From Planctomycetaceae bacterium (GTDB lineage: Bacteria > Planctomycetota > Planctomycetia > Planctomycetales > Planctomycetaceae), in assembly GCA_020426325.1 (NCBI GenBank), contig JAGQQG010000017.1:1-64000 (forward strand): a stretch of DNA of 64,000 nt, in the 5' to 3' direction. Positions 16,102 through 20,980 of this stretch are shown in pieces (the stretch's first letter is position 1; each line of letters starts with the position of its first letter). Both the position numbers and the translations under genes were made by a program. The notes beneath the pieces were generated by a model that had not been told where the DNA came from, made no database searches, and worked only from the letters and a program-made list of their open reading frames with translations.

Positions 16102-16201
16102 GAGCAGGGTCTAAAAAGTCGGCATTGCAGGATTTACAAGACTCCGGTATCTTCCCGCCCCATTCGATGTTTGTCGACAGTCACGATGCAGGGAGGCACT
16201 C

Positions 16202-17368
16202 GTGGATTTGAGATCGTTTCGCTTTTTGCACGCAGCCGATTTCCGGCTGGATGTCCCGTGCATGGGGGTTCGCGATCTTACGCCCGAGCTGTGCCGTCTG
16301 TTCGTCAACGCCCGCTATGCCGCTGCTCGGCATGTGTTCGATACGGCGATTGCACACGAGGTTAACTTCGTGGTTCTTGCTGGCGGACTCCTCGATCCGG
16401 CACTCCCAGGGTTGCGTGGTCCGTTGTTTTTGATTGAACAGTTCGAGCGTCTGGCCCAGCATGGAATCAAGGTCTATTGGGCCGGTGCCACGTTCCTTTC
16501 GATTGGACGCTGGCCCCGTCAAGCTCCCCTCCCCTCGAACCTTCGGCTGTTTGCCAAAGGGGCCGCGTCGCAGATTCACGAACGGAACTCCCGGCCGGTC
16601 GCGCGGCTGTTACTCCTGGATGAAGATCCTGTTCGCCCGCTGAGTTCCAAGCTCTTCACGATTGGGATCGATCCGCAATGCACAACGGCAACCAGAGATG
16701 CTGAGTCGGCTGTCGACTACTGGGCACTGGGGGGACAGTCGCAACGAGACACTCACACGTTTGACGGAAACATCGTCCATTTTCCGGGTTCGCCCCAGGG
16801 CCGCATTCCGGAGGAAGTCGGCCCGCATGGTTGCAGCCTGGTGACGGTCGATGGTGCTGGCGATGTTTCGATCCAGCCGGTCGCAACGGATGTCGTGCGC
16901 TGGTGCCAGGAGGCCTTCCGGTTCTGTGATCACACCCCCTGGACAGAAGTTGAACAACAGTTTGAAGAGCGTGTCGATCGTTTGCGGCATGAACTGACCT
17001 CGACGCCAACCGTTGAGATGGCCGTGATCAACTGGACCGTGACCGGCAGCGGGCTCTCAATGCAGCGTCTCATGCAGCCTGAAATGCAGCGGCAACTCAT
17101 GAGCAAGTTGAACACCCGATTCCAGAATCGGGTGCCGGCAATCTGGAATCTCGATCTTGATGCCGTCATTGATGCTCGACAACTGGACGACTGGCAAAGT
17201 GAATCAACTTCACTCGGGGCGTTTCTGCGCGAAGCTGCAGGGATGTCAGAGAGCCTGAGTCAGGGACACGGAGCGGAGAACGCTCCGCCCTTCTTCAATC
17301 AGCCATTCCGACGAAAAGTCACGAACGAAGGCATTCATCAACTCAGGAAAGCACTGCTCACGAACTGA
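16202..17368 (+). CDS. YhaO/SbcD-like protein without metal ligands (predicted pseudo-nuclease)
   Basis: The 388-residue protein aligns by eye with YhaO, the Mre11/SbcD-like partner of YhaN: FRFLHAADFRLD at residues 6-17, VNFVVLAGGLLD at 54-65, LAQHGIKVYWAGATF at 84-98, DYWALGGQSQ at 172-181 and FPGSPQGR at 194-201. In active enzymes these sites read HAADLHLD, AGDLYD, GNHD and ALGHIH. Here the histidine of the first, the aspartate of the second, the asparagine, histidine and aspartate of the third and both histidines of the last are gone. The fold is kept, the di-metal centre is not. The start is GTG at 16202, after GGGAGG. It lies 99 bases before the YhaN-like gene, so the pair is probably co-expressed. 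Confidence 0.82.
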   Translation: MDLRSFRFLHAADFRLDVPCMGVRDLTPELCRLFVNARYAAARHVFDTAIAHEVNFVVLAGGLLDPALPGLRGPLFLIEQFERLAQHGIKVYWAGATFLSIGRWPRQAPLPSNLRLFAKGAASQIHERNSRPVARLLLLDEDPVRPLSSKLFTIGIDPQCTTATRDAESAVDYWALGGQSQRDTHTFDGNIVHFPGSPQGRIPEEVGPHGCSLVTVDGAGDVSIQPVATDVVRWCQEAFRFCDHTPWTEVEQQFEERVDRLRHELTSTPTVEMAVINWTVTGSGLSMQRLMQPEMQRQLMSKLNTRFQNRVPAIWNLDLDAVIDARQLDDWQSESTSLGAFLREAAGMSESLSQGHGAENAPPFFNQPFRRKVTNEGIHQLRKALLTN

Positions 17369-17467: not shown

Positions 17468-20400
17468 ATGAAGTTTCATCGCATCGACATTGACGGATTC
17501 GGCGTACTGGCTCAGACGACACTGGACGGACTCAACGGCCAGCTGAACGTCGTCTACGGTCCCAACGGGGCCGGCAAGTCGACACTCCTGCACTTTCTGA
17601 AGGGGGTTTACTGCGGGTATGACGAGGGCCGTCGGCTGGGCTTGATGCCTCCCGTTGGGGGCGGCCCCGGAGGAGGCAGCGTCGTTGCCGATTGGCAGGG
17701 GGATGTATGCCGTTTCACGCGGACCAGTGAAACGGAGAGTGACCACAAACTTCGAGTCACCCTGGACCGCAACGGGCGACACACTGCACATCCGCGGTTT
17801 GCAGGGAACGAAGTACCGGCTGCTCTTCTCCCCATGCTTTACATGGTTGGACATGCCGATGTGCATGCCCTCGATCGACTGGTGGAGAAAGCCATCGACG
17901 ATGGAATTGATCTTATCACACGCGGAGACGACTCTCTTCAACTGGCGTCCACATCGACGGGGGTGCACGCCCATCGTGCTGAACTCGAAGATGAAGCTGA
18001 TAAGGTCCGCATCGCTGAGTTAACGGGACAGCGTCAGCGCTTACAGGCCGAGCTTGAGGAACTGACGAGGCAATTGCGTGAACGGTGTGACCAACTCACC
18101 CGAGCACACAACTCGCGTCAGCAATCAAACCGTGAACAGGCCTGGAAGACCGTCCAATGGTTACAGACGGAGTTGCAAGCGGCGGAATGCGATCTGCGCG
18201 AGGCGGAAGATCGTGCGTGGCAGCCGAGCTCGACGCATCAGCGGACTCAACGCGTGACCATGACTTTGCCGACTCAACCGAAACGGCAGGCATCCACCAG
18301 CCACCTGGACGTCAGTCGCCGGGTGGAACTGGAAGCCATCGATGAACGCATCATCGAGGCGCGAACAACCCTGATCGATATCGCACAGCGACGACTGGAA
18401 GTGAGTCTGGGAGCGGCCCGCATCGCCGGTAGCGAAGATCTGCAATCCGGCGAGCTGCTTACGGTCCTGCGTGAGTCGCTCCAGGAACTGGAGGGCACGA
18501 TCCTTGAACTGCGGGACGACTCGCAAAACCTCAGCCGAGACCGGGATGTCCCGCGTTGCCAGTGCAAGCAATGGGCAACGACGACACGAACGGCTGTCGA
18601 GGAGATGCGTCGCCGGCTGTACGGTATCTGTGAGCAGGTATCGCGGTTCGAGCTGCATCACAACAAAATGTTCTACTCTGCTGTCTCTGAAGAACTCGAC
18701 CAGGAGGAACATGAGCAATTGCAACTGGTCCAGTCGTTGCGAGAGCAGCGGCAGGCGATTGTCGAGTCGACCGGGAATCTGGAGACCTGGCAAGGTCCTT
18801 CGCAACGCTGCGTCGAACACGAGCTGTGCGAATGTTCGGACCATTGGGAGTATCAGCAGCGTCTGGTTCGACCTCAGCCTGTCCCCGCAGCCACGACGAC
18901 CGTGGTCGTTGAGCGACCTCTGCCCGTTGCGACGATCATCAAACCGACAGCAGAGCAATTGCGACGGCTGCGTCAACGGCGGGACGACCTGCGTACGAAG
19001 CTCGAAGCGGCCCGCGTCCACTGGCGGACCTGCCGCCTGCAATCGAGTCCGTTCACACTCCCCGAGGACGTGCGAGCCCTGGAAGAGCGGATTGATCTGA
19101 CTCGCGTTGAACTGGACACGATTGAACGTGAATTGATCTCACTTCAGGAGCGGGCTCATGTGCTTTTGTTGACGGGTGAAGTGATCAGACGGGCTGTCCA
19201 ACGTGTGGAGCAGGACGGACGGCCACAGGCAATTCGCTGGGCGGGTGCTTATCTCTCCCGATTGACGGGCGGTCGGTATGTTGACCTGCGTGTCACACCG
19301 GAGCATCACGACCTCCGCGTTGTTGACAGAGAGGGAACCGAACGACCTCGTTGGACACTCAGTCGCGGAACTCTGGATCAGGTGGCCCTGTCCCTGCGAC
19401 TGGCACTGGTGCGGGCGTATGCCGACAAAGGCATCAATTTCCCGATGGTCATGGACGATGTGCTCGTCGACTGTGACATCGACCGCCTGCAGGAAGCCGT
19501 CCGACTACTGTGCGAGTTTGCTGTCAAACATGATCAGCAGATCATTTATCTGACATGCGGCACCCATCTCGCGAGTCTGTTCCATTCAGAAGGGACAACG
19601 CCCATCACGATGCCCGGGTCGCTGGCCGATTCCTGGACGAGAGATGAATCCGTCAAACGTCCGGCCAACTGGACGATTCGTGGTTGGGTCGATCAGACAG
19701 AGGTCACTCATCGGTCGTCAGAGAGTCCATCTGCCCCGATCAAGATCGTCGAGGAAGCGCACTTCGTTCGCGTGCCTGAGCAGAGTGCATCGGCTCCTGC
19801 GATCCGGTCGAATGAGAGCCGTGACACCTCATCTCGGCAACGAGTGTCGCCCGGCTCGGATTCCGATCGTGTTCGACTCACTCGTCCCTTGAACCGGCGT
19901 CAGCCTGGTGGTCAGTTTTGGCTGTCGATGGACAGTCCGCTGATGCTTGTGCCTTCGATCGGTGATCAGATGGGACATCGACTGGTCGCATTGGGTATTC
20001 GGACCGTCGAAGAACTGATCGAGTTGCCGGCTGATCAGGAAGTGGTGCCGCTGAAAACCTTGCAGATCAGCGAATCTCGACTTCGTGACTGGCAGGCCGA
20101 AGCGATTCTTTTGTGCTGCGTCCCAGACCTGACCGGGCAGGACGCACAACTGCTCGTGGCCTGTGGCGTCCGCACTCCGCAGCAACTGGCACAGATCGAT
20201 GTTGATCAACTCGTACACCGACTGAGCCGTCTGCCGCAAGACCAGTGGGGACGGCATCGCCGCGAAGGTTGGCCATCGCGAGACGCGGTGCAACGCTGGA
20301 TTCACAACGGCCGCCATGCCCGTTCTCATGAGGATGCCCGTCGTTCAACCTCAAAGCACAATTCCGTCCGCAGGCCGTTCTCTCGACGCCAGCAGTCGGA

Positions 20401-20980
20401 GACAAGTTCCTCCGGCACCCGCATCCGGATTGCCCGGACGGGTCATTCACGTCGGGATCACTCAGACCAACGACAACATGAGACTCAGGTGGCGGCGCAC
20501 ACTACACCATTCGTCACTGCTTCGACGGACGAGTCGGGCGACTGGAAGTTCTACCTGAGCCCGGAGAGTCCGGTCGTAGATGCTCCGTCGATCGGTCCGA
20601 AGATGGCGATGAGACTGGAACGGATCGGCATCGTGACCGTCAGCGATCTGTTGGCCAGGAACGCAGCAAAGGTCGCCGAGCGACTGGATCACAAGCGAGT
20701 CAAGGAAGAGACCGTCGTCATGTGGCAGCAGCAATCGCGATTGATGTGCCGCATCCCGCATTTGCGCGGACATGATGCACAGGTGCTCGTGGCCTGCGAC
20801 ATTACTCAGCCAGAGCAAGTCTCAGGCATGGATCCGCGAGCCTTATTCGGAATCATCGGCCCGTTTGTGGAAACGGTCGAAGGACAACGCCTCCTCCGGT
20901 CAAGCAAGACACCCGACTTGGAAGAGGTCACCGAGTGGATCAGATGGGCGAACCACGCTCGCCCGCTCAAGGCTGCATGA
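17468..20980 (+). CDS. YhaN/Rad50-like coiled-coil ATPase with two DUF4332-like modules
   Basis: The 1170-residue protein has an SMC/Rad50-type split ATPase: Walker A GPNGAGKST at 31-39, a long helical coiled-coil region (about 180-600), the signature LSRGT at 631-635 and Walker B MVMDDVLVDCD at 660-670. Cysteine clusters RCQCKQW near 361 and CVEHELCECSDHW near 447 fall in the coiled coil and could act in place of a zinc hook. After a charged linker come two related segments at about 817-925 and 1026-1130, each with a SIG(D/P)xM-type turn and a GxDAQxLVAC stretch, resembling DUF4332, a helix-hairpin-helix-like domain. YhaN proteins usually end after the ATPase, so this is an added DNA-binding-like tail. 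The partner gene upstream encodes a YhaO-like protein. Confidence 0.88.
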   Translation: MKFHRIDIDGFGVLAQTTLDGLNGQLNVVYGPNGAGKSTLLHFLKGVYCGYDEGRRLGLMPPVGGGPGGGSVVADWQGDVCRFTRTSETESDHKLRVTLDRNGRHTAHPRFAGNEVPAALLPMLYMVGHADVHALDRLVEKAIDDGIDLITRGDDSLQLASTSTGVHAHRAELEDEADKVRIAELTGQRQRLQAELEELTRQLRERCDQLTRAHNSRQQSNREQAWKTVQWLQTELQAAECDLREAEDRAWQPSSTHQRTQRVTMTLPTQPKRQASTSHLDVSRRVELEAIDERIIEARTTLIDIAQRRLEVSLGAARIAGSEDLQSGELLTVLRESLQELEGTILELRDDSQNLSRDRDVPRCQCKQWATTTRTAVEEMRRRLYGICEQVSRFELHHNKMFYSAVSEELDQEEHEQLQLVQSLREQRQAIVESTGNLETWQGPSQRCVEHELCECSDHWEYQQRLVRPQPVPAATTTVVVERPLPVATIIKPTAEQLRRLRQRRDDLRTKLEAARVHWRTCRLQSSPFTLPEDVRALEERIDLTRVELDTIERELISLQERAHVLLLTGEVIRRAVQRVEQDGRPQAIRWAGAYLSRLTGGRYVDLRVTPEHHDLRVVDREGTERPRWTLSRGTLDQVALSLRLALVRAYADKGINFPMVMDDVLVDCDIDRLQEAVRLLCEFAVKHDQQIIYLTCGTHLASLFHSEGTTPITMPGSLADSWTRDESVKRPANWTIRGWVDQTEVTHRSSESPSAPIKIVEEAHFVRVPEQSASAPAIRSNESRDTSSRQRVSPGSDSDRVRLTRPLNRRQPGGQFWLSMDSPLMLVPSIGDQMGHRLVALGIRTVEELIELPADQEVVPLKTLQISESRLRDWQAEAILLCCVPDLTGQDAQLLVACGVRTPQQLAQIDVDQLVHRLSRLPQDQWGRHRREGWPSRDAVQRWIHNGRHARSHEDARRSTSKHNSVRRPFSRRQQSETSSSGTRIRIARTGHSRRDHSDQRQHETQVAAHTTPFVTASTDESGDWKFYLSPESPVVDAPSIGPKMAMRLERIGIVTVSDLLARNAAKVAERLDHKRVKEETVVMWQQQSRLMCRIPHLRGHDAQVLVACDITQPEQVSGMDPRALFGIIGPFVETVEGQRLLRSSKTPDLEEVTEWIRWANHARPLKAA

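Follow-up and report, generated by a model that had tools for sequence, protein, structure and literature searches.

Mre11-Rad50 complexes are near-universal, and it is difficult to disentangle what they do by cutting from what they do without it. Mre11 both dimerises and binds Rad50. Nuclease-deficient E. coli SbcCD (H84Q), whose ATPase activity is down by only ~15%, has been used to measure DNA-length-dependent ATPase stimulation (PMC6265447). Eukaryotic DNA polymerase B-subunits, from which every catalytic residue of the related phosphoesterase has gone, act as regulatory subunits (PMC4996933, PMC10721889). In the open-licence literature searched, we found no bacterial Mre11 or YhaO paralog described as inactivated.

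Here we analyse a two-gene locus in a 64,000-nucleotide stretch of DNA from a Planctomycetaceae bacterium (the window). The locus resembles canonical Mre11-Rad50, SbcCD and YhaO-YhaN systems in the fold of its phosphoesterase, in the order of genes (phosphoesterase, then SMC-like ATPase) and in the intact nucleotide-binding motifs of the partner. It differs from them in that the nuclease site is lost, the coiled coil is shortened, DUF4332 has been added to the ATPase, and the subunit is dispensable within the genus. Retention of an inactivated Mre11-like phosphoesterase fold is shared with the B-subunits of eukaryotic DNA polymerases alpha and delta (PMC4996933, PMC10721889), but their partner is a polymerase and not a Rad50-like ATPase, and no close sequence relation is claimed. 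The features of the locus are listed in Table 1.

Table 1. Positions of the features of the pseudo-YhaO/ATPase locus in the window.
Feature	Coordinates	Strand	Description	Basis
Conserved upstream block	16120..16161	+	Present in all five genus genomes, including those without the pseudo-nuclease	Alignment
Pseudo-YhaO/Mre11-like subunit	16202..17368	+	388 aa, GTG start, stop codon included	ORF calls, AF2, Foldseek, VIA-align, ligand table
Motif I HAADFRLD	16229..16252	+	Asp13 kept, ligand His replaced by Arg15	Alignment, ligand table
Motif II AGGLLD	16379..16396	+	Bridging Asp replaced by Gly62	Alignment, ligand table
Motif III region WAGATF	16478..16495	+	Asn and catalytic His in no register	Alignment, ligand table
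Motif IV region IDP	16667..16675	+	Ligand His gone (Pro158; exact register uncertain)	Ligand table
Motif V ALGGQSQ	16724..16744	+	Both ligand His gone (Gly178, Ser180)	Alignment, ligand table
FPGSPQGR, residues 194-201	16781..16804	+	Conserved non-ligand loop of the fold	Sequence
Partner ATPase	17468..20980	+	1170 aa, YhaN/SMC-like head; in 5/5 congeners	Pfam AAA_23/AAA_27
Walker A GPNGAGKST of the ATPase	17558..17584	+		Sequence
Walker B MVMDDVLVDCD of the ATPase	19445..19477	+		Sequence
First DUF4332 (helix-hairpin-helix) domain of the ATPase	19952..20308	+	Two stretches	Pfam PF14229, E 1.8e-37

The frame of the pseudo-YhaO gene, whose GTG start at 16202 has a GGAGG a short way upstream, is unbroken through the last codon (to 17365) and the stop (to 17368). 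The original prediction, a YhaO/SbcD-like pseudo-enzyme without a frameshift, therefore had both the coordinates and the open frame right. Sequencing error or frameshift is ruled out as a source of the losses described below, because an independent metagenome-assembled genome of a sister bacterium (G001, Planctomycetaceae bacterium HKST-UBA51) contains an ortholog (L069) with the same eight site residues at 59-60% protein identity.

The AlphaFold2 model of the window protein, built with 50 relatives, is confident (pLDDT 90, pTM 0.88) and has the Mre11/SbcD/YhaO fold that had been expected. Its best structural matches are Mre11 proteins (Foldseek to 3av0_A, E 1.1e-13), and VIA-align superimposed 278 residues, spanning 5-331, on 4tug_C (MjMre11) with Z 23.0 and rmsd 3.7. 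The C-terminal helices are of lower confidence (pLDDT ~66-92) and are poorly covered by the structural matches. A relative from Rhodopirellula baltica gave a model with Z 24.5 against 3av0_A. The window protein is 34% identical to one canonical YhaO (E 6.7e-20); together with the fold match, this means that the alignment of motifs is no chance resemblance. The family profile matches P. furiosus Mre11 1ii7 (E 5.5e-8), with the family ALGGEHER opposite ALGHIHKR. By fold and homology, comprising phosphoesterase core and capping domain, the protein belongs with Mre11/SbcD/YhaO. Domain models recognise it poorly: Pfam gives no match for it at E up to 1, Metallophos (PF00149) included, while 36/50 relatives match PF00149 at E up to 0.01; the NCBIfam Mre11 models match it weakly, and nothing in the window genome exceeds the curated 77.65 bits of the sbcD equivalog TIGR00619.

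We scored the site at eight positions, namely the seven metal ligands (D, H, D, N, H, H, H) and the catalytic His. In the alignment, the window protein reads D-R-G-T-F-P-G-S where all canonical planctomycete YhaO compared read DHDNHHHH, so that of the complement of an active nuclease D13 alone is kept. All four motifs had been read correctly from the letters (HAADFRLD, AGGLLD, AGATF, ALGGQSQ), and the His of motif IV, absent from that list, is lost as well. The claim that every metal-binding residue is gone thus stands for six of the seven ligands and for the catalytic His, and fails for the motif I Asp. Ligands displaced to shifted positions, which would have spoken against the prediction, were not encountered: relatives hold their ligands in place, and motif III of the window protein offers no Asn or His in any register. 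Nor was a substitute set of His, Asp or Cys ligands seen to be conserved in the alignment of the window protein with its sister ortholog. The FPGSPQGR loop, noted earlier near residue 194 and found at residues 194-201, is strongly conserved among the 50 relatives (G196 in 50/50, Q199 in 49/50, R201 in 47/50).

Comparison of the window gene with the G001 ortholog gave a dN/dS of ~0.22 overall, with the lowest value, ~0.10, over residues 1-120, the former active-site half; both are rough since dS is >1. For the partner ATPase the ratio is 0.12. These values support purifying selection on the pseudo-nuclease, kept as a pseudo-enzyme.

Searching the genome collection with a profile built from degenerate members yielded 193 relatives. 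We inspected the best 80 of them, which come almost only from Planctomycetota and mostly from Pirellulales. The scan used two peptide patterns containing YWALGG and the motif I Asp, with motif III and the other sites outside the patterns; the invariance of Gly at the first GHxH His, like that of the motif I Asp, therefore partly reflects how the hits were chosen. Among 82 tree sequences, the catalytic His and the first His of GHxH (a pattern-biased column) occur in 0/82 each, and Asn at the motif III position in 5/82. The motif I Asp is kept in all 82 (again pattern-biased), the motif I His in 77, the motif II Asp in 67 and the last His in 70, and 65/82 keep both of the latter two. We take these four residues to be the metal-1 ligands of Mre11, assuming that ligands are assigned to metal 1 and metal 2 as in Mre11 (PDB 1II7) and related phosphoesterases. 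On this assignment, all inspected relatives have lost the metal-2 half and the catalytic His, and most keep exactly the metal-1 half. Since most retain this whole half-site, the ligands were lost stepwise.

The 82-sequence tree shows four independent losses of the motif I His, accompanied by loss of the motif II Asp in 3.8/4 pairs and of the last His in 3.9/4. This sample is too small for significance: with four to six independent pairs available, tests of joint loss cannot go as low as 0.05. The motif IV position changed 16 times, unrelated to losses of these three residues. Motif III now reads VYWAGGxxDxPxxWP in the family, and the near-invariance of W93, W104 and P105 implies that the pocket is under a new constraint and not free to vary.

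Pairing with an ATPase is the rule: 72/80 related loci have an SMC-like ATPase with intact Walker A directly downstream, mostly with an ATGA overlap, and the LSxG signature and Walker B are intact in those adjacent ATPases whose frame is complete. Of the eight remaining loci, four lie at contig ends, three have an ATPase whose Walker A is a variant (GHNEAGKST or GCNEAGKTT), and at one (L118 4128-5540, termite-gut MAG Th196P3bin88) no ATPase adjoins the gene in the stretch examined. Four Pirellulales genomes (G040, G049, G054, G057) contain both canonical and degenerate pairs. The window genome itself has a second YhaO system (C420-type), likewise degenerate and, like its family, found beside a YhaN-like ATPase; this YhaO forms a clade separate from the window protein, and its ATPase has a hydrophobic apex and is without DUF4332. 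No active paralog was found elsewhere in the window genome; by eye, the two other weak matches look like an OLD-like ATPase and a membrane phosphoesterase of the YaeI-like kind.

The window locus is a two-gene system of the same kind, with the nucleotide-binding motifs of the adjacent ATPase intact. This ATPase has a shortened coiled coil without a hydrophobic apex (maximum 19-residue hydropathy 1.25) and carries a second DUF4332 copy near its C terminus. The same build characterises the ATPases of the window lineage (G000-G004, G008, G015), which form one clade (support 100) in the ATPase tree, with G008 and G015 sister to the genus: they have no apex, carry DUF4332 and have Walker B at ~residue 660 vs ~1000. 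DUF4332, a domain that a single paper of the open-licence literature searched mentions by name, was confined to this lineage among the ATPases scanned. In G015 (L060 7289-8488), DUF4332 is encoded by an ORF of its own, immediately 3' of a shortened ATPase.

A hydrophobic stretch near the coiled-coil apex was present in all of 63 full-length partners except the window ortholog at L069; among the partners L070-L148, nearly all full-length ones have hydrophobic segments at ~residues 480-540. These segments suggest that the complexes may be anchored in the membrane. ATPases paired with canonical planctomycete YhaO have no hydrophobic apex. Firmicutes YhaO-YhaN (Latilactobacillus and Enterococcus plasmid records) resemble the Pirellulales degenerate-nuclease systems in the hydrophobic apex of YhaN, which the window ATPase, by contrast, does not have, while their YhaO keeps GNHD and LGHIH. 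Because two Firmicutes YhaN carry the apex beside an intact YhaO, we reject it as the cause of nuclease loss, and it is not a consequence of that loss either.

Within the genus the two genes have fared differently. The ATPase is present in 5/5 genomes. Of the pseudo-nuclease, G000 and G001 have an intact copy, G002 retains 96 aa, and G003 and G004 have none at the locus. The G002 ORF (L056 4988-5275) joins the beginning of the pseudo-nuclease to its end through an in-frame internal deletion and adjoins the ATPase start at the contig end; with ~340 bases to that end, an assembly fault is possible. In the ATPase tree, G003 and G004 are nested in a lineage with G008 and G015 as outgroups, and a degenerate copy persists in both of these outgroups, which makes gene loss likelier than late gain. 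None of the five genomes contains a canonical YhaO or an SbcD above the TIGR00619 cut-off. Since the gene is deleted or absent where the ATPase stays, the subunit is not indispensable, and the pseudo-nuclease is best read as becoming dispensable in this genus. In genomes without it, the conserved upstream block stands shortly before the ATPase. A promoter would be a guess for this block; a sigma-70 promoter is rejected, as no consensus match was found in it. The selected pseudo-enzyme originally proposed is supported by the constraint on the gene, the confident fold and the intact ATPase partner across the family, but its deletion or absence in congeners departs from that proposal. The structural or regulatory role suggested with it would be in keeping with the pairing.

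We consider that the protein is probably a catalytically dead Mre11/YhaO-type subunit whose role is to scaffold the adjacent SMC-like ATPase without cutting. Computation here shows a preserved fold, a metal site of which one Asp is left, purifying selection on the gene, unbroken motifs in the ATPase and a pairing that holds across the family. The congeners that lack the gene count against a scaffold, since they show that the ATPase can do without it. The same genomes, together with the loss of ligand residues, would fit a decaying relic, in which the nuclease has become unnecessary, the gene drifts toward loss with no present function and the ATPase works alone. We regard this as unlikely: in G000 and G001 the frame is intact at 59-60% identity with dN/dS ~0.22, constraint is strongest in just the half that held the active site, none of which a neutral relic would retain, and in Pirellulales relatives the gene persists, in most cases in translational coupling with the ATPase.

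Remaining catalysis, as a phosphoesterase or otherwise, with one metal or a rebuilt site, is very improbable for the window protein. Among its relatives it finds some footing in the full metal-1 half-site of most members and in the joint loss of metal-1 ligands in nearly all pairings at the four motif I His losses, as would follow from one metal still being bound in those relatives. Yet the window protein keeps D13 alone, the catalytic His is absent from the whole tree, and the two orthologs share no new ligand set; in Rv0805, a related phosphoesterase, changing just the motif III Asn (N97A) abolishes activity (PMC13001264). Scarcely more probable is a part in an anti-phage defence or conflict system instead of DNA housekeeping. 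The ATPase head is best matched in PADLOC by MADS and Lamassu ATPase models (mad3, E 9.5e-15; LmuB, E 2.8e-14), which also counts against a scaffold, and one plasmid-borne canonical YhaON pair adjoins BREX genes. The pseudo-nuclease, however, matches no PADLOC family, the system is widespread in one order and paired with its ATPase, unlike a patchy defence island, and the window neighbours (a nitroreductase, a Ser/Thr kinase-like protein, pantothenate synthesis) include no defence genes. The MADS and Lamassu matches may reflect a shared SMC-like build, and other roles may also apply.

As a non-cutting scaffold, by analogy with Mre11, the dead subunit would attach by its C-terminal helices to the coiled-coil base of the ATPase and would dimerise the complex, which may sense or tether DNA in an ATP-dependent manner without nucleolytic cleavage. 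The helix-hairpin-helix DUF4332 domains fused to the window-lineage ATPase may have taken over DNA contact, which would account for a subunit that is shortened or lost in 3/5 congeners. The likely order of events would begin with loss of the catalytic His and of the metal-2 half-site in a paralogous YhaO-YhaN pair; the window lineage would then have lost the metal-1 half-site, coil length and hydrophobic apex and gained DUF4332; finally, the subunit gene would have been eroded or lost while the ATPase stayed. More speculatively, and in our judgement doubtful, a whole planctomycete Mre11-Rad50-like branch may have turned from nuclease to non-cutting, ATP-driven DNA tether or sensor, passing from a one-metal, half-site pseudo-nuclease on a membrane-anchored ATPase in Pirellulales, through the window lineage, where a fully dead subunit sits on a soluble ATPase that has helix-hairpin-helix domains of its own for DNA binding, to an ATPase that works alone.

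From the sequences compared, loss of the catalytic site was stepwise across a large planctomycete family, followed in some relatives by loss of the gene itself. Evolution has here split cutting from non-cutting by degrees, leaving a half-site family, a single-ligand lineage and ATPase-only congeners, and comparison of these three forms would reveal the job of a nuclease-free complex.
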